This document shows, piece after piece, positions 21,190 to 32,130 of a stretch of 64,000 nt of DNA; position 1 is the stretch's first letter; each line of letters starts with the position of its first letter. The notes beneath the pieces are model-generated. The model had not been told where the DNA came from. It did no database searches and saw only the letters and a list, made by a program, of their open reading frames with translations. The stretch lies in assembly GCF_030164465.1 (NCBI RefSeq), contig NZ_JASNJE010000023.1:1-64000 (forward strand), read 5' to 3'. The position numbers and the translations under genes were made by a program. This DNA is from Sedimentitalea xiamensis. GTDB taxonomy: Bacteria > Pseudomonadota > Alphaproteobacteria > Rhodobacterales > Rhodobacteraceae.

Positions 21190-22921
21190 AGGTCGATCCC
21201 CGCGGGGGCGGGGGAGCCTAGTGCCGTACCTGTGTGCCGCCGATGGCCTCGGGTCGATCCCCGCGGGGGCGGGGGAGCCCGGGACAATGGCGGCGGTTCC
21301 TATCGCATCTGGGGTCGATCCCCGCGGGGGCGGGGGAGCCGGACCGCGCCGAGCTGGACGCGCTACATCACGGGGTCGATCCCCGCGGGGGCGGGGGAGC
21401 CCTGCACCGGTTTGAACCCGACCTGCGCCACCTGGGGTCGATCCCCGCGGGGGCGGGGGAGCCCCGATGACCGCGCCTGAACTACGACCCTGCCCGGGTC
21501 GATCCCCGCGGGGGAGCCCACCGCGCCCGACCCGAAATACTATCGCACATGGGTCGATCCCCGCGGGGGCGGGGGAGCCGCTGAGCGTGTAATCGGCCTG
21601 CACGGTACCCCGGGTCGATCCCCGCGGGGGCGGGGGAGCCTCCTGAATGATCCGCTGCACCGGATGTGCCCGGGGTCGATCCCCGCGGGGGCGGGGGAGC
21701 CGCCTGCACCGTGCGCTCGCCGGTGCAGATCAGGGGTCGATCCCCGCGGGGGCGGGGGAGCCTCATCGCCGGTCAGCCCCTCCAATTGCAGGAAGGGTCG
21801 ATCCCCGCGGGGGCGGGGGAGCCCGTCATGTGCGAGCCGGGATCGAAAAGTATTCGGGTCGATCCCCGCGGGGGCGGGGGAGCCAAAAACATCGGTCGCG
21901 TGAGAAAGAGGATCGCGGGTCGATCCCCGCGGGGGCGGGGGAGCCCGCTTTGTCGGGCGATGGCTGGTAAAGCGAAAGGGTCGATCCCCGCGGGGGCGGG
22001 GGAGCCACCAAAGAGGACACAAACGACGCCATTGGCAAGGGTCGATCCCCGCGGGGGCGGGGGAGCCTCGGACCGCTGCTGCATCACGGCGGAAGATCTG
22101 GGTCGATCCCCGCGGGGGCGGGGGAGCCGTCCTGCAGGACTGCGACGGCGGGCTCGACGTGGGTCGATCCCCGCGGGGGCGGGGGAGCCAGTGCATCCAA
22201 GACGGTCGGACGGCAGCGGAGCGGTCGATCCCCGCGGGGGCGGGGGAGCCCGGAGGCCGGTGAGATTGTCCACGCCGCATACGGGTCGATCCCCGCGGGG
22301 GCGGGGGAGCCCAATCAAGAAACAGCTTGAGGCTGGCGAAACCGGGTCGATCCCCGCGGGGGCGGGGGAGCCATCTTGCGCGAGGACAGCGACGAATTCC
22401 GCAAGGGTCGATCCCCGCGGGGGCGGGGGAGCCGCGAACCATTTCGCCCCCGGCGCTGACTTCCTGGGTCGATCCCCGCGGGGGCGGGGGAGCCGCGAAC
22501 CCGGCTCAGAATGCGCTTGATGCGCCGGGTCGATCCCCGCGGGGGCGGGGGAGCCCATCAGCCAGATATACCTTTAGATCCTGACCAGGGTCGATCCCCG
22601 CGGGGGCGGGGGAGCCAGTTGGCTCCGCATGAATCCTGACCAGACGCAGGGTCGATCCCCGCGGGGGCGGGGGAGCCAATGAAGAACGGAACGAAAACAG
22701 ACCAAGAATGGGTCGATCCCCGCGGGGGCGGGGGAGCCGAGAGGATCACGGCAAAGGACCGCGAACTAGCGGGTCGATCCCCGCGGGGGCGGGGGAGCCA
22801 TGACCGATACCGTTTTCAAGGAAATCCGAAAGGGTCGATCCCCGCGGGGGCGGGGGAGCCCGTGAGGCGGCGGACGGTATCCCGTTCATCGAGGGTCGAT
22901 CCCCGCGGGGGCGGGGGAGCC
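21190..22921 (-). CRISPR. Type I-E CRISPR array, 29 repeats and 28 spacers
   Basis: Twenty-nine repeats of 29 bp with a 61-bp period. Spacers are 32 bp, except the fourth from the left (21402-21434), which is 33. Read on the minus strand the repeat begins GGCTC, forms a stem CCCCGC/GCGGGG around a CCCC loop, and ends in the eight-base handle ATCGACCC, the type I-E plan cut by Cas6e. The array is therefore transcribed leftwards from the leader at 22922-22984, beside cas2; newest spacers are at the right. Variants: the repeat at 21496 lacks six bases; the repeat at 21190 (last, trailer end) and the one at 22222 differ only at the final handle base. The rest are identical, which suggests recent or active use. 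Confidence 0.98.
21496..21518 (-). repeat. Shortened CRISPR repeat with six bases deleted
   Basis: This is the sixth repeat from the left. It keeps both ends but has lost six bases from the centre, so it is 23 bp instead of 29. The stem CCCC/GGGG is left with a two-base loop, so at most a three-base-pair hairpin can form. Cas6e cleavage here is probably weak. The flanking spacers are both 32 bp. Confidence 0.95.
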
Positions 22922-23309: not shown

Positions 23310-24185
23310 TCATGGTCCATCCTCGATCAGGGCTTTGATGCGTTCGATCATGGCTGGTATGATCCTCTCCCTGGCCAAGGTCTCTCCGGTGAGACGCCGT
23401 GCAATGCGCTCGACAGGCATGTCGGGCCTGTCCTCGGCGCGCTTGGCCGCGCGGAAGGCGCAGGGCAGAGTAACCGTCTCTCGCCAAAGGTCGGCAATGT
23501 CGAGCACAAACGACTGACCTGGGTCCTCGTGGATGAAACCCAGTTGTGGCACGGTCGCAGTCGCGCTTACGGCAATTGCCGCAGCGGCCTCGACGGCAGA
23601 GGCCGCGTGGTTGAGAGCCTGGTTGGCAAGATCGGCTGCCTGGGGATTTGCCCGGTCGTACCGGCGGCCGCGCCAAGGCACGCCAAAGCGCTCTGCGGTC
23701 AGCTTGTAACTTTCCTTGACGCGGGCTCCCTCAATGCCGCGCAACACATCGAGGGAGCGATGCGGCAAGACCTCACCCAGGCGCAGTGCGTACATGCGCC
23801 GGGCGACCATGATCCGCATGTCCTCGTCAGCCCAAATGCGCGCCTGAAGACGCGCGAGCCCGGAGCGGTCGGGGATCAGTGGCGGTGCCGTGTAGAGACG
23901 AACACCATCCTCTCCCACAGCCGCAAGCGCAGTGCGCGCATGGGCCAGCAGGCGAAGCGCGTCGTGACTGACTGTCGACCCCGGACCGAGCAGGATCATC
24001 GAGACGCCCTGAAGCGGAATGGCGTGATCGCCCTGCGCCAGAGCGTCCGGTCCGGACTCCGCGCCACGCAGAAAGGCCAGCGTTCCGTCTCGTGCGGTCA
24101 GTTGGCCACGCGCAAGATAGAGCAGCCCCGCCCTGTCCGCATGGGGAACCTTGGCGCTGTCAAGGCCCAGGCGTCCTTTCAGCAT
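23310..24185 (-). CDS. cas1: Cas1 integrase, type I-E
   Basis: A 291-residue Cas1e, the catalytic subunit of spacer integration. It starts LKGRLGLDSAKVPHADRAGLLYLARG, like other Cas1e proteins. The metal ligands are seen as the glutamate in GIEGARVKESYK, the histidine in LGFIHEDPGQSFVLDIADLWR, and the aspartate of the same segment. The ATG at 24185 has AAGGA directly upstream and lies five bases beyond the cas6e stop; the frame is open upstream but only as an antisense-like extension of cas6e. All catalytic residues appear present. Confidence 0.97.
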   Translation of the reverse strand: MLKGRLGLDSAKVPHADRAGLLYLARGQLTARDGTLAFLRGAESGPDALAQGDHAIPLQGVSMILLGPGSTVSHDALRLLAHARTALAAVGEDGVRLYTAPPLIPDRSGLARLQARIWADEDMRIMVARRMYALRLGEVLPHRSLDVLRGIEGARVKESYKLTAERFGVPWRGRRYDRANPQAADLANQALNHAASAVEAAAAIAVSATATVPQLGFIHEDPGQSFVLDIADLWRETVTLPCAFRAAKRAEDRPDMPVERIARRLTGETLARERIIPAMIERIKALIEDGP

Positions 24186-24189
24186 ATCC

Positions 24190-24981
24190 TTAGCTCCTCG
24201 GGACCGGTCGCCCCGGCGGTCGCAGCAACAGCATACCGAAACCGAAGGCTTTGTGACGGCCGACGCCGCGGCGCAAGCGATCCCTGAAGGCGTCCGGTTC
24301 GCGGACGGTAAGCGTGCCGTGCAGAATTGCGTCCGGCCCTTCAACGCCACGTCCATCCCCCCTTGCGGCCAAGCGGCGACGGAATGATGCAAGGCGGATG
24401 TCCTCGATCTCCGCGGCGCCCGCGAGGCGATCAGCAAGCCATGCGGCATAAACGGTTTCGCGACTGCGATCCGTGTCCCCCATGGCGTTCCGGTCGGGGT
24501 TGCGCAATGCGGTTGCGAGAAAAGCGTCAATCTCCGCTCCCGCCTTGAACCCGTGCCGCCGGCCCTTGTTGCGATCCGCAGGCGTTTCGATGTCGGAAGC
24601 CAGGCGCACGACCGGGCGCAGCCGAATGTCGAAGCCCAGTCGACGGCCCGGAGCGGCAACATCCGGCAGCGTCTTGGTCGCAAGGCGGGAGAGCGGCAGC
24701 GCAGCCTCAGCCGCTTCGGACAAGGCCACCATCTTTGCGGTCTCCAGCAAAGTGGCGGCATTGGCCTCGGTATAGGCCCATAACGTCCCTGTCCGGGCTC
24801 GGGGTGCGACGATCAGGCGAAACGGTTGAAGTACACCGGGGCCAAAGGTCTCACCTAGCAAGTGGTGAAGCGCCCGGCCCTCGTCAAAGGTGGCGCGCGA
24901 ACCACGGGTCCAGCCGCGCTCACCTGCTGCGCGTGCAAGAGCGGGCAAGTCGATCGGCAGCCGGGCGAGGTGAAGCGTCAC
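24190..24981 (-). CDS. cas6e: Cas6e crRNA endonuclease (CasE)
   Basis: A 263-residue Cas6e, which cuts the pre-crRNA at the base of each repeat hairpin and stays bound in Cascade. It starts LHLARLPIDLPALARAAGER as in the family, has the central RNRNKGRRHGF-like segment (DRNKGRRHGFKAGAE), and ends with the glycine-rich RNA-binding loop GVGRHKAFGFGMLLL. A histidine early in the protein (ALHHLLGE) is in the usual catalytic region. It overlaps cas5e by four bases. Confidence 0.95.
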   Translation of the reverse strand: MTLHLARLPIDLPALARAAGERGWTRGSRATFDEGRALHHLLGETFGPGVLQPFRLIVAPRARTGTLWAYTEANAATLLETAKMVALSEAAEAALPLSRLATKTLPDVAAPGRRLGFDIRLRPVVRLASDIETPADRNKGRRHGFKAGAEIDAFLATALRNPDRNAMGDTDRSRETVYAAWLADRLAGAAEIEDIRLASFRRRLAARGDGRGVEGPDAILHGTLTVREPDAFRDRLRRGVGRHKAFGFGMLLLRPPGRPVPRS

Positions 24982-25664
24982 ACCATACCCTCCACGATTG
25001 CGCGCGTTCCGCCATGCAGTCCGCTGGACCAGACGCGGCGATCAGCGACGTCCATCGCGCGAGATCCGGACGGGCCTTTATCCGCGGGCCACATGGCGGG
25101 CCTGGGTTTGTCGCGATCGATCGCGCAGAGCGCATCGTGGACGGTCGGCGCGTCAACAAATCCGCCGTTCAGCGGCGTGGATGGCAGACAGGGCTTGCGT
25201 CCAATGAAAAGGGGGCGGGCTGGACGGTCGAGAGCGTTGGCGACCTCGTCCAGTGTGGGCTGTTGATTTTCTGGATCCAGACGCAATACCACCCGAAGGG
25301 AGGCATCCAGAATATAGTCGCGCCGCCGTCGATGCGGTGCGTCGTAGCTCGCTCCCGTGCGACCTTCCGGTTGTCCGCGCGTCGTCCATCCTCGATCTGT
25401 CTTCCCGAGTTGGGCATTCTGGCTGTCGGTCAATATGTCTCCCTCCCGCAGGGCGATAGCCCCGAACAGAAGCCGGTCCTGAAGCGCCTGATGCGCGGTG
25501 CGGTCGTCCCAATCCCAGCCAAGCGCGTTTCCCAGCATTCCGGTCAACATCGAGGCCCCGGGCCAGCGTGCCGTCGGACCCACCTGGTCGATTGCGACGG
25601 CGCCAAAAGACATCATCGGCGCGCAGAGGCGCAGCACCAACCAGCGCATTTCACCGCCACTCAT
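24978..25664 (-). CDS. cas5e: Cas5e, Cascade subunit (CasD)
   Basis: A 228-residue Cas5e that caps the 5' handle of the crRNA in Cascade. Visible are the N-terminal RAMP strand RWLVLRLCAPMMSFGAVAIDQVGPTARWPGASMLTGMLGNALGW and the typical RRRRDYILDASLRVVLRL. The start ATG overlaps the cas7e stop (ATGA), and its own end overlaps cas6e. In this group Cas5e does not cut RNA. Length is normal for the family. Confidence 0.95.
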   Translation of the reverse strand: MSGGEMRWLVLRLCAPMMSFGAVAIDQVGPTARWPGASMLTGMLGNALGWDWDDRTAHQALQDRLLFGAIALREGDILTDSQNAQLGKTDRGWTTRGQPEGRTGASYDAPHRRRRDYILDASLRVVLRLDPENQQPTLDEVANALDRPARPLFIGRKPCLPSTPLNGGFVDAPTVHDALCAIDRDKPRPAMWPADKGPSGSRAMDVADRRVWSSGLHGGTRAIVEGMV

Positions 25665-26779
25665 GACAGCCGGGCTGGAAGAGTGGCGGCCCAGTCGGCC
25701 AGTTCCTTGAGCGTGCCGGGCGCCGCGCCATCCAAGGCCTCATTGCGCAGAGACAGGACGCGGCGCTCCTCACCTGTGGCATATGCGCGGTCCAGTGCGG
25801 CGAGGTGCCCGGTCAGCGCCTCGGCGGCAGATGCCATGTCAGGATCGCACGGAACGCGGAACGCCTCGGCCAAAGAGCGCGGCTGACGGTCGCCCGCTTC
25901 GAGCAGCATCAACCCCGCGCGGCCGTAGGGTGCGGTGGACCCGAGTTTCGCGCCGGGGGATACTTCGGCAATCAGATGGACGAGGTTGTGCAGGACCGGA
26001 CCGGCGAGGTCAGGCGCGGCAGACCCGAGATTATCAATCAAGCCGGGCAAGTCGACAACGACGTAGCCATAAAAGAGGCCGGAGGTCAGTTCCGTTTCCT
26101 GGATGGTGTCGGCACCTGGTTCGTCCGCGCTCAGGTCATCGACGGCCGTAAAATAATCGGATTCGCTCTCCTCTCCATGAACGGTGAACGCATGAGCGAC
26201 ATGGACAGGGGCTGTGATATTGGCGGAGGTGTCAGAGGTGACCATCCGCCCGAAGAGCGCAGCTGTAAGTCCCCCGGGCAGCGCCGTCGCTTCACGCATC
26301 GCCGCAATGTTCTTCTTGAAATCCTTGCCCCACTGCTCAGTTGCCTTGGCCGCCGCCTTCGTATCGCCCGCGGACTCTGCCACGAGACGCTTGGCCTCAT
26401 CGCGCAGCCATGCGAGCTCGCGTTCTCCGAACAGCAGGGTCTGGCGGCTTCGTTTTTCTTTGAAGCCCTTACCGCCGTAGACGGCTTCCTGAAAGGCAGG
26501 CTCTATGGCCTGAACGACTTCCGACGGTTCCAGTCCCCCCAGCACTTTGCGCGTCACCAGTTCTCGCGATCGGAACGCCTTGTCCGCACCGTTAATAGTG
26601 TGAAGCGCATGCGGATCTTCCGCCATGCGCCAATGCCGTTTGAGGCATTGCGACGAGACCCGCGTGCGAAGGGCACCGCCATAGGTCAAGCGCTTGGCGA
26701 GGCCACTGTCATCGCGGTTGAGCAAGGTCGCGGTGTAGGAGGTCAGGGTGTGGATTTGTAGAAAACGGGGTTCAGGCAT
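25661..26779 (-). CDS. cas7e: Cas7e, Cascade backbone subunit (CasC)
   Basis: A 372-residue Cas7e; six copies form the crRNA backbone in E. coli Cascade and each flips out one base in six. The family start FLQIHTLTSYTATLLNRDDSGLAKRLTYGG is clear, followed by RTRVSSQCLKRHWR. The chosen ATG at 26779 overlaps the cse2 stop by eight bases; longer in-frame starts would lie inside cse2. The GLFYGYVVVDLPGLIDNL segment is also typical. Confidence 0.96.
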   Translation of the reverse strand: MPEPRFLQIHTLTSYTATLLNRDDSGLAKRLTYGGALRTRVSSQCLKRHWRMAEDPHALHTINGADKAFRSRELVTRKVLGGLEPSEVVQAIEPAFQEAVYGGKGFKEKRSRQTLLFGERELAWLRDEAKRLVAESAGDTKAAAKATEQWGKDFKKNIAAMREATALPGGLTAALFGRMVTSDTSANITAPVHVAHAFTVHGEESESDYFTAVDDLSADEPGADTIQETELTSGLFYGYVVVDLPGLIDNLGSAAPDLAGPVLHNLVHLIAEVSPGAKLGSTAPYGRAGLMLLEAGDRQPRSLAEAFRVPCDPDMASAAEALTGHLAALDRAYATGEERRVLSLRNEALDGAAPGTLKELADWAATLPARLS

Positions 26780-27335
26780 CGGCAGGCATATCCTTTGATG
26801 TATCTGCATCGCGCTCGGCGCAATCAAGGCGGCGGTAATACGGGGCGGCAAGCGCATCCGGGCGGGAGGAGTCAAGAAAGGCCCGGGCGATGTCGGGTAC
26901 GCGAATACCTGCATCCGCGGGCTTGGACGCGGCGAGCGCACGGATCGCGCGTGTCAGCAGAATGGTGCGTTGCTTGCCGCGCGCGGCCATGAGCTGCGCC
27001 AGACGGCGCTCGCTCAACATGGGACGGGGCAGGTTCGCGCCCGGCCAGTCCCGATCGCCACCGGTGCACAGGGCTTCGCCCAGTGGGCAATCTTTGTCGT
27101 GCAGATCCGGCCGGTCTTCCGGCGCGCCTTTCGGCGTCAGGATCGCCAGCGCCCGGACGATGGACACCCAGCGATCCGGCCGGTCAGTCAGCGGCGCGTG
27201 GCGCGCGGCCAGTCGCCAATAGCCCGGCACGGCCCCGTCATCGCCCATGCGGCGCAGCGCGGCCAAGGTGCCGGGGTCCAGTCGCCTCAACTGCGCAGCG
27301 AGCGAGAGGGCAATTGCACCAGGATCATCAGGCAT
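26772..27335 (-). CDS. cse2: Cse2, Cascade small subunit (CasB)
   Basis: A 187-residue Cse2/CasB, the small helical subunit present twice in Cascade that holds the displaced DNA strand. It shows the family elements LRRLDPGTLAALRRM, YWRLAARHAPLT, RWVSIVRALAILTPKG and the conserved ERRLAQLMAARGKQRTILLTRAIRAL. It starts at 27335 inside the cas8e end (eight-base overlap) and overlaps cas7e in the same way, so all these genes are translationally coupled. Confidence 0.93.
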   Translation of the reverse strand: MPDDPGAIALSLAAQLRRLDPGTLAALRRMGDDGAVPGYWRLAARHAPLTDRPDRWVSIVRALAILTPKGAPEDRPDLHDKDCPLGEALCTGGDRDWPGANLPRPMLSERRLAQLMAARGKQRTILLTRAIRALAASKPADAGIRVPDIARAFLDSSRPDALAAPYYRRLDCAERDADTSKDMPADA

Positions 27336-28839
27336 TGGTCGTCTCCAACAGGTCCGCCTTTCGCACGGCGCTTTCCAGTCTGCTTCTCGCCCGCGTCCGG
27401 GCGCGGGGCGCATGAATGCGGGCGCAAGGGACAGTTCCAAAAGCGCGGGTCAACTCGGTGCGGGCCGTCTCGACCAGAGCAGCACGAAACGCGCGTGTCG
27501 CGGCGGTCTGCGCGTCCGGGCCCTGTTCCATCGCAGTAATCCGCGCCCAAAGGTGGTTGAAGAACACCCGGTCCGCAAAGGCGTCGAGCCGAGCGCGCGC
27601 TTCGGCGGCACGCAGGCGTTGCGGTTTGCCGACGCTCTCATAATCTCCACCTGCCGCATAAAGCGCGACCGCCTCCCGAAGCGCGGCGTCGGCCTTCTTG
27701 ATCTCGCCGAGTTGTGCTTCCGCGACCGTCGACAGGCGCGCGGGCAAATCCTTTGCCCGCCACACGCGGGCCGGCATTGGCAGGATGCGCGATTGCAGCC
27801 CGTCGGTTTTCGAGTTCCCTCGCGCCAGCGCCTCGGCCACCACCACCATGTCGCCTGCTGCCGCGCCATCAAGCCGCGCGGCAGGAGGCGCGCGCCAGTC
27901 CTTTTCCGACAGAAGTTCGACCATGCGGCGGTAGTGAAAACGACCGCCCTCACCTAGGGTCAGGGCTTTGGGCGACGCGTCCTTCACACTTACCGGTGCC
28001 CATGGATCATCAAGCACCCCGGCGAATTCCTTGGCCGCGACACGCGCCGCCTTGGACGCGGCCCGCTCGGCCCGGATTGCGCCGTCCACCTCTGTCAGCC
28101 GGATCCGTCGGCAAACCTCGATTGCGAGCGGGTCCATGTCGGACACAGGGATTTGGCGACCCTCGGGCCAAGGCAATGTCCAGAGCAGTGCCGGCCCTCC
28201 GCGCGTCAGAACTGTCGGCGCATTCCGGTTGCGCAATACGAGGTCTAGATCGCGCCGCCACCACGAGGACGGATCGGGGCGCCCGCCCGCTCCTGCGGGT
28301 GCGAGCCCCAGCATTGCCCGGCTGGACGAACCGCCGTTCATCCGCGCGATACCGAAATTGCCGCGCCCGCCATAGCCCTCGGATGTCTGGAGCGACACCA
28401 GGGCGTAGACCCAATCCTCAGGAGCGGCGTTGTCGGCGACTGCCACCTTCAGGTCGTGGTTCTTGGATGTGATCAGGAGATCAAGCGCGTCAGGCATCGC
28501 CACTGGATCCCATTTCAACTTACCCGGGTCGGGCGGCTGCAGGAAGCCGGGCCTGCTGCGATCCTTAACCACGAGAGTCCATGGCTCGGCCGCGCCATCG
28601 GTGAGAGATAGCAACAATTCCCGCCAAACGGCGACTTCCCGCGGCGGCTCGGCGTCGGGCATTTTATCCATCGCAAGAGCGGCGAGCTGTACCAGAAACA
28701 TATGCCAGGCTGCCCGCTGGTGGGCGCGAAGGCGCAAAAAGGATCGGACCTCATCGCGGGCAAGGGCGGACAACAAGCCCGGGAGCGTGCAGGAGGCACC
28801 GGGTTCGACAGAGATAACCGGGTCGGTCAGTAAACTCAC
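27328..28839 (-). CDS. cas8e: Cas8e, Cascade large subunit (Cse1/CasA)
   Basis: A 503-residue Cas8e, the subunit that reads the PAM and recruits Cas3. Family features: the N-terminal LTDPVISVE stretch, DEVRSFLRLRAHQRAAWHMFLVQLAALAM, FLQPPDPGK, LLITSKNHDLK, and the GRGNFGIARMNGGSSSRAMLGL segment. The start is a GTG at 28839 with AAGG about nine bases upstream; that AAGG lies in the tail of the second pseudo-repeat of the miniature CRISPR described for this gap. It heads the cas operon. Confidence 0.95.
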   Translation of the reverse strand: MSLLTDPVISVEPGASCTLPGLLSALARDEVRSFLRLRAHQRAAWHMFLVQLAALAMDKMPDAEPPREVAVWRELLLSLTDGAAEPWTLVVKDRSRPGFLQPPDPGKLKWDPVAMPDALDLLITSKNHDLKVAVADNAAPEDWVYALVSLQTSEGYGGRGNFGIARMNGGSSSRAMLGLAPAGAGGRPDPSSWWRRDLDLVLRNRNAPTVLTRGGPALLWTLPWPEGRQIPVSDMDPLAIEVCRRIRLTEVDGAIRAERAASKAARVAAKEFAGVLDDPWAPVSVKDASPKALTLGEGGRFHYRRMVELLSEKDWRAPPAARLDGAAAGDMVVVAEALARGNSKTDGLQSRILPMPARVWRAKDLPARLSTVAEAQLGEIKKADAALREAVALYAAGGDYESVGKPQRLRAAEARARLDAFADRVFFNHLWARITAMEQGPDAQTAATRAFRAALVETARTELTRAFGTVPCARIHAPRARTRARSRLESAVRKADLLETTNA

Positions 28840-28848
28840 CGGCCCGGC

Positions 28849-28939
28849 CCTTGTTGCCCCAAAGCACTTGGGGAAGACGATCTGAATCCGACATTTCCCC
28901 TATAGGACACGGGTCTATCCCCGGCTTCCGGGGCCGTAA
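28849..28939 (-). ncRNA. Miniature degenerate CRISPR encoding a crRNA-like Cas-regulating RNA (CreR/CreA type)
   Basis: On the cas8e strand, 28939-28911 is a 29-nt pseudo-repeat: a stem CCCCGG/CCGGGG with AAG loop, then ATAGACCC, one base different from the true handle ATCGACCC. Next is a spacer of exactly 32 nt (28910-28879), then a second hairpin (28878-28849), CCCCAA/TTGGGG, preceded by GTCTT where the real repeat has GGCTC. Cutting at the two hairpin bases would give an RNA of about 62 nt, close to the 61 nt of a normal type I-E crRNA. The last 13 bases of the first pseudo-repeat match the array repeat at 12 positions. The spacer's seed matches the cas promoter at 29080-29049. Crossing from pattern to function is inference; RNA has not been seen. 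Confidence 0.82.
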
Positions 28940-29048
28940 TGTCAGATTCACTGCCAACGTGCGCTCCGAATTGGTAACGTCTTCGCATGGCTCGACTCGC
29001 CACCATCCGTATGGAGTTAAACTCGGTATTGAAAGCAAAACGCATGTT

Positions 29049-29083
29049 AGTCTCTTTACGGAACATTCACTATATGACACGTT
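29049..29083 (-). promoter_or_regulatory. Putative Cascade target site guided by the miniature CRISPR
   Basis: On the minus strand, 29080-29070 reads GTGTCATATAG against the guide's GTGTCCTATAG. Up to position 13 only positions 6 and 12 differ, which type I-E crRNAs do not read. The total match is 19 of 32. The three bases 5' of the protospacer (29083-29081) are AAC, an AA-type PAM whose last base agrees with the last base of the repeats. The site covers the expected -10/start region of the cas8e promoter and lies 34 bp upstream of the cas3 start. Confidence 0.75.
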
Positions 29084-29107
29084 AATCAGAAGCCTTTGTG
29101 ATGTCAA
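29079..29107 (-). promoter_or_regulatory. Probable promoter of the cas8e-cas2 operon
   Basis: On the minus strand a perfect -35 TTGACA at 29107-29102 is followed, after 17 bp, by TAACGT at 29084-29079, which keeps the three most important -10 positions (TA....T). It overlaps the first codons' side of the divergent cas3 gene. The transcript would have a leader of about 230 nt that includes the miniature CRISPR. No equally good promoter for cas3 was found on the plus strand. Confidence 0.55.
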
Positions 29108-29114
29108 GGTTGCG

Positions 29115-31652
29115 ATGATGTATCGAAAGTCAGCATGGGGCAAAACCGACAGGTCCGGTCGGCCGTCTCATCACCTCGCCCATCATTCGATGGATGTTGC
29201 AGCGGTGCTTGAAGCACTCCTGCGCCATCCGATCTTGTCTGCGCGCGCAGTCGCCGCCGCCGGCACACCGCTCGGGCCGACGGAAACCGCCTGGCTTTCC
29301 GCCTTCGGCTTTCTGCATGACGTCGGGAAGCTGTCTCCACGCTTCCAAGCCAAGGCGTGGAAGGACAGGGTCGCCGGCGGGACGCGCAGCCATCTGTGGG
29401 AGGGGCTTATTTGGGCGATTCGGTTATTCGAGGGCCAGCCGCTTCTGGATGGGGCTGCCACGCCATTGATCGACCCACTCATTGAGGCAGAGGCCGAGGA
29501 GGTTTGGTTCAGTGCACTCCTTGCGCATCACGGACGACCGCTGCCTTTCAGCGAAGTGACCCTGCCCTCCGACCGGCGAACCGTTTTTCCGGACGTTCCT
29601 GGCTATGATTGGCGCGCCGAGGATCGCCGGATGGGCGAGGCGCTGCGGCTCTGGTTTCCGGAAATTTCCATGCCCCGCGCTCCGCTTCGATCCTCTCGCC
29701 TGGTTCATCTTTTCGCCGGGTTGCTGGCGCTAGCCGACTGGATTGGTTCTGACGTCCATGCCTTCCCGCATGTCCACGATTTCGACCCGAACTACGGCAC
29801 GAGAGCCCGGGCGCTTGCAGCAAAGGCCGTGGCAGCCATCGGCCTGACGGAACCGTCCTGGCCGAAGGCTGCACCGAGCTTTGAAGACCTGACCGGCCAC
29901 CCCGAGCCACGCGGTGTTCAAAAGACAATTGTCGATGTGCCAAGATCCGCCCGTCTTGTCGTGGTCGAAGCAGAGACCGGATCGGGCAAAACCGAAGCCG
30001 CGCTCATGCACTTTGCCCGGCTCAGGAGCGAGGGTTTGGTAGACGCGCTCTACTTCGCGGTGCCGACTCGTGCCGCCGCCGGGCAGTTGCATCGTCGTAT
30101 TGATGAAGCCATGGTTCGTATCGGCGGCCCGGAGGCCGTGCTGGCCGTGCCGGGCATGTTGCGGGCAGGACAGGCGAAGGGTCGGAAGCTGCCGGGTTTC
30201 CGTGTTCTTTGGGATGACGATCGTACGCATTGGGCTGCGGAGCATCCAACCCGCTTTCTCGCCGCCCCGATCGCGGTGGGCACAATCGATCAGGCACTGC
30301 TGGCCGGGTTGCGCGTCAAACATGCACCGCTGCGCGCGGCAGCTCTGACCCGCAGCCTGTTGGTCATCGATGAGGTACATGCCTCGGATGCCTATATGAA
30401 TGCCGTCGCCCGTCCGCTTGTCGCCGGGCATGTCGCACTTGGCGGACATGCCCTGCTGATGTCGGCCACACTTGGCTCGGCACAACGCGCCGCATGGCTG
30501 GGGCAGGACGTTCCTTCGCTCCACGCGGCAGAAGCCATCTGCTATCCCGCAATCTGGCACAATGCGTCTCCTTCAGTTCCCCTGCGTCCCGATCCCGAAA
30601 ATCGTGAAAAGATCGTCCATCCGGTTCTCGTGCCGACGATGGACCCGATGGAGGCCGCCCATCTGGCGGTGACCGCGGCGGCGCAGGGGGCCCGCGTCCT
30701 TGTGATACGAAACACGGTCGATGCCGCCGTCGATACATGGCGTGCTGTTACGGCAACTCGGCCAGATCTATGCTTCGCCATTCGCGGTCGCGCGACCCTG
30801 CACCATTCGCGCTTCGCCGCGGAGGATCGGCAAGCGCTTGATGCCGCGGTGGAGGACGCATTTGGTCGCGGCGGCAGCGGGAACGGAACGGTCTTGATCG
30901 GAACGCAGACGCTTGAGCAGTCGCTGGATATCGACGCGGATTTTCTGATCACCGATCTGTGCCCGATGGACGTGCTGCTGCAACGCATCGGGCGTCTGCA
31001 CCGCCATTCAGATCGAAGCAGACCTGCTGGCTTCGAGACTGCGGCCGTTCACGTCATGGTGCCGGAGGGTGGACTGGAGCCGCTGGCGATCGGTCCAAGC
31101 TTCGAGAACGGCCTTGGCGCCTGGCCTCATGCGGGCGGATACGCCGGCATCTACCTCGACCTTCGGATCCTGGAGCTGACCCGCCGGTGCCTGATCGGCC
31201 ATACGCCCTGGCGCATCCCGGCCGACAATCGGCACCTGGTCGAGGCATCAACTCATCCCGATGCTCTCGCCGGGATTGAGGCCGAAATGGGTTGGTCGGA
31301 TTACGGAATGCGAATTGATGCCAAGGCTCTGGCGGAAGGCCGCGCAGGAGGGATTGTCACGCTCGACCGGGCCGCTCCTTTCCCAGAAGCTTTCCCAGAT
31401 GCAGACGAAGCGATTCAAACTCGGCTCGGTGCCCGCGGCCCGAACTTCTGCCTTCCAAAGGGCGCTATCGGACCGTTCGGGGCACCAATTTCAACCATCG
31501 CGCCCCCCGTGCATTGGTGCCACGGGTTGACCGGTGACGAGACGGTGGAAGTTGCATTGAGCGGAACAGGCCTCACGCTGAACATCAAAGATCACTCGTT
31601 CGAATACGACACCGCAGGTTTGTCGCGAACAAGCGATCCAATCGTCAAGTGA
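29115..31652 (+). CDS. cas3: Cas3 helicase-nuclease, type I
   Basis: A 845-residue Cas3 that unwinds and degrades DNA marked by Cascade. The HD nuclease domain is at the N-terminus (HHLAHHSMD near residue 19; FLHDVGKLSPRF with His68-Asp69). The helicase follows: Walker A TGSGKTEAAL near residue 288, DEVH near 419, the SAT motif in LLMSATLGS, and motif VI QRIGRLHRH near 621. The two adjacent ATGs at 29115 and 29118 are both possible; AAGG lies five or eight bases upstream. It is divergent from the Cascade operon, so the shared 275-bp gap can control both. All catalytic motifs are intact. Confidence 0.96.
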   Translation: MMYRKSAWGKTDRSGRPSHHLAHHSMDVAAVLEALLRHPILSARAVAAAGTPLGPTETAWLSAFGFLHDVGKLSPRFQAKAWKDRVAGGTRSHLWEGLIWAIRLFEGQPLLDGAATPLIDPLIEAEAEEVWFSALLAHHGRPLPFSEVTLPSDRRTVFPDVPGYDWRAEDRRMGEALRLWFPEISMPRAPLRSSRLVHLFAGLLALADWIGSDVHAFPHVHDFDPNYGTRARALAAKAVAAIGLTEPSWPKAAPSFEDLTGHPEPRGVQKTIVDVPRSARLVVVEAETGSGKTEAALMHFARLRSEGLVDALYFAVPTRAAAGQLHRRIDEAMVRIGGPEAVLAVPGMLRAGQAKGRKLPGFRVLWDDDRTHWAAEHPTRFLAAPIAVGTIDQALLAGLRVKHAPLRAAALTRSLLVIDEVHASDAYMNAVARPLVAGHVALGGHALLMSATLGSAQRAAWLGQDVPSLHAAEAICYPAIWHNASPSVPLRPDPENREKIVHPVLVPTMDPMEAAHLAVTAAAQGARVLVIRNTVDAAVDTWRAVTATRPDLCFAIRGRATLHHSRFAAEDRQALDAAVEDAFGRGGSGNGTVLIGTQTLEQSLDIDADFLITDLCPMDVLLQRIGRLHRHSDRSRPAGFETAAVHVMVPEGGLEPLAIGPSFENGLGAWPHAGGYAGIYLDLRILELTRRCLIGHTPWRIPADNRHLVEASTHPDALAGIEAEMGWSDYGMRIDAKALAEGRAGGIVTLDRAAPFPEAFPDADEAIQTRLGARGPNFCLPKGAIGPFGAPISTIAPPVHWCHGLTGDETVEVALSGTGLTLNIKDHSFEYDTAGLSRTSDPIVK

Positions 31653-31675: not shown

Positions 31676-32005
31676 CTATGCGGCGTGCTCGAACAGCCCC
31701 CTGATAAACGCGATTTCGCCTCTGATGTCTGGTTCTTTGTGATGGATGTGGCCGCGTTTGATGGTCCGGATCGTCTCGATCCCGCTGAGGGTCGCCTTTG
31801 CGGTTCGCAACGAGCAGAATCTCTGGCGGTATCCGATGAGCCGTTTCAGCGCGGCGTGGTCGATCTCGATCCGATCGTTCCGCCATTTTCCGTCGATATG
31901 CCGGATGCTGTCGAAATGCGGGCCATATCGGTGATTAATCTCGCGGATGACGAGCGGGTAGGCGCGTGCCTTGTCGGCGCAGATTGTCACCGGACGGTGG
32001 AGCCG
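31676..32005 (-). pseudogene. IS6-family transposase, N-terminally truncated remnant
   Basis: About 109 residues of the C-terminal half of an IS6-type DDE transposase: ICADKARAYPLVIREINHRY, then DSIRHIDGKWRNDRIEIDHAALKRLIGYRQRF and SLRTAKATLSGIETIRTIKRGHI. The N-terminal helix-turn-helix and first catalytic aspartate are missing; the sequence upstream of about 32005 is unrelated in this frame. It lies 23 bp after the cas3 stop, pointing the other way, and marks the edge of the CRISPR island. Inverted repeats were not identified. Confidence 0.85.
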
Positions 32006-32130
32006 AACGGTTAGTGTCCGAGTACGTGGTGAAATTTCCGCGCCTTCAACGGTGTAATGCGGGCGGCCATCGAGGTGTATGGTCGAGGTGGAGTTTCGAC
32101 GCTTCAACCACGAACCCTACGGAGACCCGG

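Follow-up and report, generated by a model that had tools for sequence, protein, structure and literature searches.

Guides that repress the cas genes of their own system are already known, and what is possibly new in the element described here is its embedding in a small ORF (12 of 13 loci) and the occurrence of 20-nt guides (4 of 14 loci). Shmakov et al. (2023, NAR) reportedly described CRISPR-derived regulatory mini-arrays, comprising standalone repeats and mini-arrays with spacers that partly match cas promoters, that of cas8 particularly; the repeats of the present element, in contrast, are degenerate and may escape a search by repeat similarity. Workman et al. (2021) are said to have found a natural single-guide RNA that makes Cas9 autoregulate by turning the effector on its own promoter, and that system differs from the present one in being of type II, in using a long tracrRNA form and in having no mini-array.

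The cas-regulating RNA CreR (Liu et al. 2023, Cell Host Microbe) is described in excerpts of PMC13131331 as a mini-CRISPR beside cas genes whose guide is partly complementary to a cas promoter; the same excerpts state CreRs for types I-B, I-E and V-A, and CreR also appears in excerpts of PMC12948488 and PMC12737573. Measured against these excerpts, the element reported here is likewise a mini-CRISPR beside cas genes, with partial complementarity of its guide to the candidate cas promoter region. It differs from CreR in that cas3 is divergent, so that one site may serve two promoters, in that a small ORF with its end at cas8e encloses the mini-array, and in that some relatives carry 20-nt guides. 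Since type I-E CreRs are in print according to the same excerpts (PMC13131331), we place the element among the known CreR-type guides, and the belief of the original prediction that such a guide is undescribed carries little weight. Excerpts of the report on CreA of the CreTA module (Cheng et al. 2021, PMC8501985) state that two degenerate repeats are common in CreA, and that positions 1-5 and 7-11 of the seed are essential while 6 and 12 are free. The present element shares with CreA, as given there, the two highly degenerate repeats, an 8-nt 5' handle, a seed at positions 1-5 and 7-11 with 6 and 12 free, and a PAM beside the promoter, here a candidate one; CreA, however, represses a toxin RNA, and no toxin is recognisable here. 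For type I-B, an excerpt of PMC10989794 reports that spacers shortened to 24 bp keep repression and lose interference, and natural 20-nt guides can possibly be understood in this light. In the literature on regulatory mini-CRISPRs and crRNA-like RNAs with small ORFs or translational coupling, as far as the excerpts compared extend, no mini-array inside a small ORF was found described, the two primary papers of 2023 (Liu et al., Shmakov et al.) standing outside this comparison.

The window, by which we mean the whole 64-kb stretch of DNA that was analysed, holds a type I-E CRISPR-Cas locus. Its minus strand carries cas8e, cse2, cas7e, cas5e, cas6e, cas1e and the array, and its plus strand carries cas3, divergent from cas8e across a gap of 275 nt. 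The element in this gap adjoins the cas genes of the effector it would use, with type I-E genes on both sides.

21190..22921, minus strand: real CRISPR array, repeat GGCTCCCCCGCCCCCGCGGGGATCGACCC, beyond the cas operon
23310..24761, minus strand: ORF with cas1e in its 3' part (TIGR03638, passes the NCBIfam cut-off)
24190..24981, minus strand: cas6e, predicted processing nuclease (profile match, passes the NCBIfam cut-off)
24978..25664, minus strand: cas5e (profile match, passes the NCBIfam cut-off)
25661..26941, minus strand: ORF holding cas7e (profile match, passes the NCBIfam cut-off)
26772..27440, minus strand: ORF holding cse2 (cas11), by Pfam PF09485, with no NCBIfam match
27328..28839, minus strand: cas8e (cse1), by TIGR02547 at 67.6 bits, just under the cut-off of 70.05, and by its relatives
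29115..31652, plus strand: cas3, divergent (profile match; the ATG at 29115 is the start chosen within the ORF 28851-31652)

The original prediction had pointed to a 29-nt pseudo-repeat with its stem and handle, followed by exactly 32 nt and a second hairpin, and all of these parts were found on the minus strand. They lie within a small ORF, as follows.

28911..28939, minus strand: pseudo-repeat 1, 29 nt, with stem CCCCGG/CCGGGG (28919-28933) and 8-nt handle ATAGACCC (28911-28918); 15/29 identical to the array repeat, with Cas6e predicted to cut where stem and handle meet
28879..28910, minus strand: guide (pseudo-spacer), 32 nt, GTGTCCTATAGGGGAAATGTCGGATTCAGATC, as read in the sequence
28850..28878, minus strand: pseudo-repeat 2, hairpin CCCCAA/TTGGGG, predicted 3' handle; 11/29 identical to the array repeat
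28836..29045, minus strand: small ORF, 69 aa, extending across the mini-array in full, with a TGA that overlaps the GTG start of cas8e

The two pseudo-repeats are not near-identical to the array repeat (15/29 and 11/29), as those of a canonical CRISPR array unit would be, and the architecture is crRNA-like, with two repeat-like hairpins, a 5' handle and a gap of spacer length. That this length fits real arrays, as had been predicted, is borne out by the 690 spacers extracted from 42 arrays, 680 of which are 32 nt long. The pseudo-handle ATAGACCC is the commonest handle among the arrays of relatives, most of which have a handle beginning ATAG; the handle of the window's own array is ATCGACCC. 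We scored this architecture by a rule blind to any target, which asks for a hairpin and a handle-like octamer, then 20, 26, 32 or 38 nt and a second hairpin, on 29 cas3-cas8e gaps of at least 82 nt, including the window and L004; the loci had been viewed by eye before the scan was written, and its parameters are thus set on them. The window gap scored 50.5, compared with a best score of 40.5 among 570 mononucleotide-shuffled gaps, 104 of which gave any match. Over the whole stretch, RNA fold energy is unremarkable (z -1.28), and the predicted 61-nt RNA folds partly guide-to-hairpin. A search of positions 27000-31000 against Rfam, up to E = 5, returned a sole match at 29824-29877, elsewhere than the mini-array and far below the gathering score.

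The guide has a target inside the same cas8e/cas3 gap and on the same strand, which had gone unnoticed in the original prediction.

29064..29080, minus strand: target (protospacer) of the guide, seed 29080-29070, with positions 1-5 and 7-11 identical and 6 and 12 mismatched
29081..29083, minus strand: PAM AAC of the target (site read here, PAM derived from relatives)
29079..29107, minus strand: candidate cas8e-operon promoter, TTGACA (29102-29107), 17 nt, TAACGT (29079-29084), with a perfect TTGACA and a weak -10 (3/6), from a consensus search without shuffled control

When guide positions 1-5 and 7-11 were searched over the 64 kb on both strands, this was the single 10/10 site besides the guide itself, the next best being one 9/10 site preceded by CTT. 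By simple arithmetic, a 10/10 match anywhere in the 275-nt gap is expected by chance about 5 times in 10,000, and none of 500 shuffled regions matched the window guide as well as its own region. The match is telling only at the handle end, because a search allowing every start in the window gap as a guide gives three other, inverted 10/10 pairs, none of them with an AAC PAM. The 13-nt inverted arms TGAATCTGACATT and AATGTCGGATTCA (28883-28895 and 28938-28950, minus strand), through which the 3' half of the guide could pair with RNA immediately 5' of the stem in pseudo-repeat 1, were considered as a self-target of that half and rejected, since the seed has no match there.

The PAM of the window is inferred from relatives because its own spacers gave no protospacer: the best phage match of these spacers, at E 0.5, was not convincing; among the matches listed against plasmids there were only ones of low identity, apparently to other CRISPR arrays; and 22-nt pieces of 2 of the 26 window spacers had no exact match in viral_contigs. 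The 690 spacers from 42 arrays were compared with five Rhodobacter phage genomes matched by the Rhodobacter capsulatus array (L041). AAC precedes each of the five spacer-protospacer matches that have no more than one mismatch, and the twelve with at most three mismatches, 11 of which come from L041 and none from the window's own spacers, are preceded by AAC (8), AAT (2) and AGC (2). Four weaker matches, with 5-6 mismatches, are preceded by AAC, AAT and, twice, CGG.

PAM and seed of the target overlap the candidate promoter TTGACA-17-TAACGT, as located by the consensus search without shuffled control; a stricter promoter scan of the window gap found no promoter. With the best candidate from the same uncontrolled consensus search, the target begins at -9 to +13 of the presumed transcription start in 10 of 12 loci, the others being L056 (-38) and L024 (-60).

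Relatives of cas8e drawn from genome_contigs gave 54 loci. In the target-blind scan, 12 of the 29 gaps (window included) scored 42.0-50.5, one scored 30.0 and sixteen had no match, leaving 17 of the 29 without the element. The guides of all twelve scan-positive loci match 9-10 of 10 seed positions in their own gap on the cas8e-sense strand, next to a PAM reading AAC in nine, TAC in two and AAT in one; ten of them carry a guide of exactly 32 nt and two, L035 and L059, one of 20 nt. A further sample of 22 loci, outside the tuning sample and scanned under slightly looser criteria that admitted additional handle forms and one extra length and set the cut at 40, added two members, L074 and L076, both with a 20-nt guide, PAM AAC and a target on the other strand; the L076 target (9/10) lies downstream of its mini-array and was missed by the scan, being found only by a whole-locus search. 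The family thus totals 14 loci, two of them near-copies, all with a 9-10/10 seed match and a PAM of AAC, TAC or AAT. The 20-nt guides of four of these mini-arrays (L035, L059, L074, L076) fall short of 32 by exactly 12 nt, or two Cas7 steps. L046 comes from Paracoccus kondratievae and L059 from Roseivivax sediminis. Among the hosts are Paracoccus, Roseivivax, Natronohydrobacter and Silicimonas, together with MAGs filed as Hyphomicrobiales, Gammaproteobacteria, Acidobacteriota and Deinococcota.

Distribution of the element is patchy. The conservation of hairpins and spacing that had been proposed as a check fails in the three nearest relatives (L016, L014 and L004; cas8e 73-77% identical, cas3 divergent), which have no such element, and holds in more distant loci. 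On a cas8e tree of 50 rows, from which 8 of the 54 cas8e loci were left out, the mini-array trait needs at least 12 changes and clusters no better than chance (260 of 500 shuffles as low), from which we infer that it has often been lost or gained. Upstream of cas3, 19 of 43 regions gave a match with scores of 30-42.0, and the 18 checked for a target reached at most 8/10. No member was accepted from a phylum sample with PF09481 (18 of the 22 further loci), the matches in L093 being repeat units of its true array, and five plasmid-borne loci showed no mini-array; the plasmid-borne candidate L102, scoring 39.0, was rejected, as it lies far upstream within a coding stretch and has chance 9/10 matches with no AAC. 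Scanning left out four partial loci (L077, L078, L096, L097). The Salinibacter ruber plasmid pSR118 carries between cas3 and cas8e (L103:647-1399) a DUF6364/PIN-domain pair, probably a toxin-antitoxin; no mini-array was found there. Upstream of a split cas8e in Pontibrevibacter (L099:1472-1505), a single hairpin is followed by AATAGAATG and is perhaps a decayed pseudo-repeat.

Guides were compared with their own and with swapped upstream regions in 12 loci, leaving out L066 as a near-copy of L046 and including L058. Against its own region the guide matched 10/10 in seven loci, 9/10 in four and 7/10 in one (L058); shuffled regions were as good in 0 of 500 for the seven 10/10 loci, in 5-9 of 500 for the four 9/10 loci and in 412 of 500 for L058. 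The 132 swapped guide-region pairs scored 6 (44 pairs), 7 (65), 8 (22) and 9 (1). With the guide start placed exactly at the end of the handle, the match averages 9.4; a shift by one base lowers it to 8.3 in one direction and 7.9 in the other, and larger shifts to about 6.7. Guides fit their own targets and not those of other loci. A comparison of 13 pairs, which leaves out L066 and L058, gave a seed identity of 96% for own and 38% for swapped pairs (0 of 10,000 permutations as high), a figure helped by targets pre-chosen as best matches; the 12-locus test provides the fair control by swapping. Agreement at positions 6 and 12 is limited to 1 and 2 of these 13 pairs, and positions 13-17 agree in 48%. 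Hairpin 2 pairs in 100% of cells over 10 aligned loci, and its two inner pairs show compensatory changes. The register of hairpin 1 varies from locus to locus, with 53% of cells paired in one fixed register, and since it lacks a common register clean pair counts come from stem 2 only. In a MAG close to Paracoccus, L058 (5680-5997) has retained the spacing and pseudo-repeat 2, has the handle ATAATCGC and no scored stem 1, and is perhaps a mini-array in decay.

The small ORF was surveyed in 13 loci (the twelve scan positives and L058, with L046, L066 and L058 closely related), following the frame in which the handle reads xAT AGA CCC. This frame is open to the cas8e start in 12 of them: it overlaps that start in nine (ATGA, GTGA or TAATG), stops within 1 nt of it in L021 and L065, and ends 9 nt short in L056. 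The exception is L015, where it stops 210 nt short of cas8e. In L048 a stop codon lies in frame ahead of the mini-array, and in L074, outside the 13-locus count, the frame ends 11 nt inside cas8e. The alternative frame, ATA GAC, ends at the cas8e start codon in 0 of 13 loci, coming nearest in L056 and L035 (13-14 nt inside cas8e), and in 11 of 13 the third frame closes within the handle itself. Upstream of the mini-array, the small-ORF frame fits host codon usage best, with summed log-odds of -1 compared with -127 and -77 over 11 loci and the best fit in 10 of the 11, a difference to which stops in the other frames add and for which the region was cut at the small-ORF frame's own start codon. 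Between L046 and L066, 8 of 103 sites differ before the ORF and 2 of 206 inside it; no closer relatives were found for a dN/dS estimate of the small ORF. The encoded proteins share little beyond the residues forced by the pseudo-repeats, their N-terminal parts included. None of 10 matched Pfam, and the window's protein had no NCBIfam match, in a kind of search that very short toxins can escape.

Judged by reading frame and codon usage, the small ORF is probably translated, and it is probably a leader coupling cas8e translation rather than a known protein. With more doubt than confidence, we raise the possibility that the element is dual-coding, a mini-CRISPR within a translated leader ORF, such that Cas6e processing would release the guide and sever the leader ORF from cas8e, uncoupling cas8e translation. 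If so, a second, post-transcriptional feedback loop would be contained in one element, and guides of 32 or 20 nt would be expected because the 12-nt difference keeps both the reading frame and the 6-nt Cascade period.

Three other accounts of the element were weighed. It could be a CreTA-like module, in which the small ORF or an RNA between promoter and mini-array is a CreT-like toxin, the guide its CreA antitoxin, and cas8e merely downstream. The order of promoter, small ORF and two-pseudo-repeat guide matches that of creTA as given in excerpts of PMC8501985, and a small ORF is found at most loci; the ORF, however, passes through the guide and ends at cas8e, its N-terminal parts have little in common between loci, no shared rare-codon pattern is apparent by eye, and the searches of Pfam (0 of 10) and, for the window's ORF, NCBIfam came back empty. 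We consider this account improbable. That the element is instead the last repeat-spacer-repeat of an old array, now functionless, would suit the strong degeneracy of the repeats (15/29 and 11/29), the absence of the element from the nearest relatives, its patchy distribution and the decayed appearance of L058 with its 7/10 seed. Decay would not, however, leave 13 loci whose guides differ with both hairpins, the exact 32- or 20-nt spacing, a PAM and a seed matched over 10 nt, which makes a dying remnant very unlikely.

The mini-CRISPR likeness could also be no more than that, in a regulator-binding inverted repeat or a cas8e leader attenuator. The small ORF suggests translational control, and the 13-bp inverted arms (28883-28895/28938-28950) enclose most of pseudo-repeat 1 and pair in the window better than in any of 500 shuffles, with weaker pairings in L046, L066 and L059. 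Across 12 loci, however, arm pairing goes beyond about 2% of shuffles only in the window, L046/L066 and L059, and the PAM and the mismatch pattern at positions 6 and 12 are left unexplained, so this account seems extremely improbable.

Judging from the architecture, seed match, PAM and recurrence with guide-target fit, all of them read in the DNA, the element is very probably a type I-E CreR-type Cas-regulating guide that serves Cascade-guided autorepression of the cas genes. Since the guide matches the presumed promoter region of its own system, its product is most likely an RNA directing the immune complex to lower the expression of the complex's own genes. The original prediction of a crRNA-like Cas-regulating guide for a type I-E system is thereby supported, both by the seed and PAM match in the cas8e/cas3 gap and by the recurrence of the same architecture with a locus-fitted guide at 13 further loci of type I-E, including two near-copies. 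Transcription of the minus strand would start near 29072 and run through the mini-array into cas8e. Processing by Cas6e at both pseudo-repeats would yield a crRNA-like RNA of about 61 nt, made up of the handle AUAGACCC, the 32-nt guide and a 3' hairpin. Once loaded with it, Cascade would bind AAC-GTGTC(n)TATAG (29083-29070), a site that overlaps the candidate promoter of the cas8e operon and lies upstream of the divergent cas3, and may there block transcription, the pairing past the seed presumably being too poor for Cas3 cleavage. Titration of Cascade by immune crRNAs or anti-CRISPRs would release the cas genes.

These results indicate that a guide degenerate enough to escape CRISPR finders is present in a good share of related type I-E loci, both from Alphaproteobacteria and from MAGs assigned to other phyla. 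Such guides would tie Cas expression to free Cascade, and cas expression would, if this is true, rise when crRNAs or anti-CRISPRs occupy the complex. The 14 loci with matched guide and target lend themselves to testing, and whether Cas6e exerts a translational feedback through the small ORF is a testable question as well.

Some further observations concern the surroundings of the locus. One repeat of the array, at 21496-21518, is 23 nt long instead of 29, with 6 nt missing from the loop part. A piece of an IS240-type transposase lies at 31676-32107, directly downstream of cas3. The same genome carries a second N-terminal fragment of cas8e (L002:219-542, contig C36), 49% identical over query residues 2-107 and apparently a remnant of another type I-E locus.
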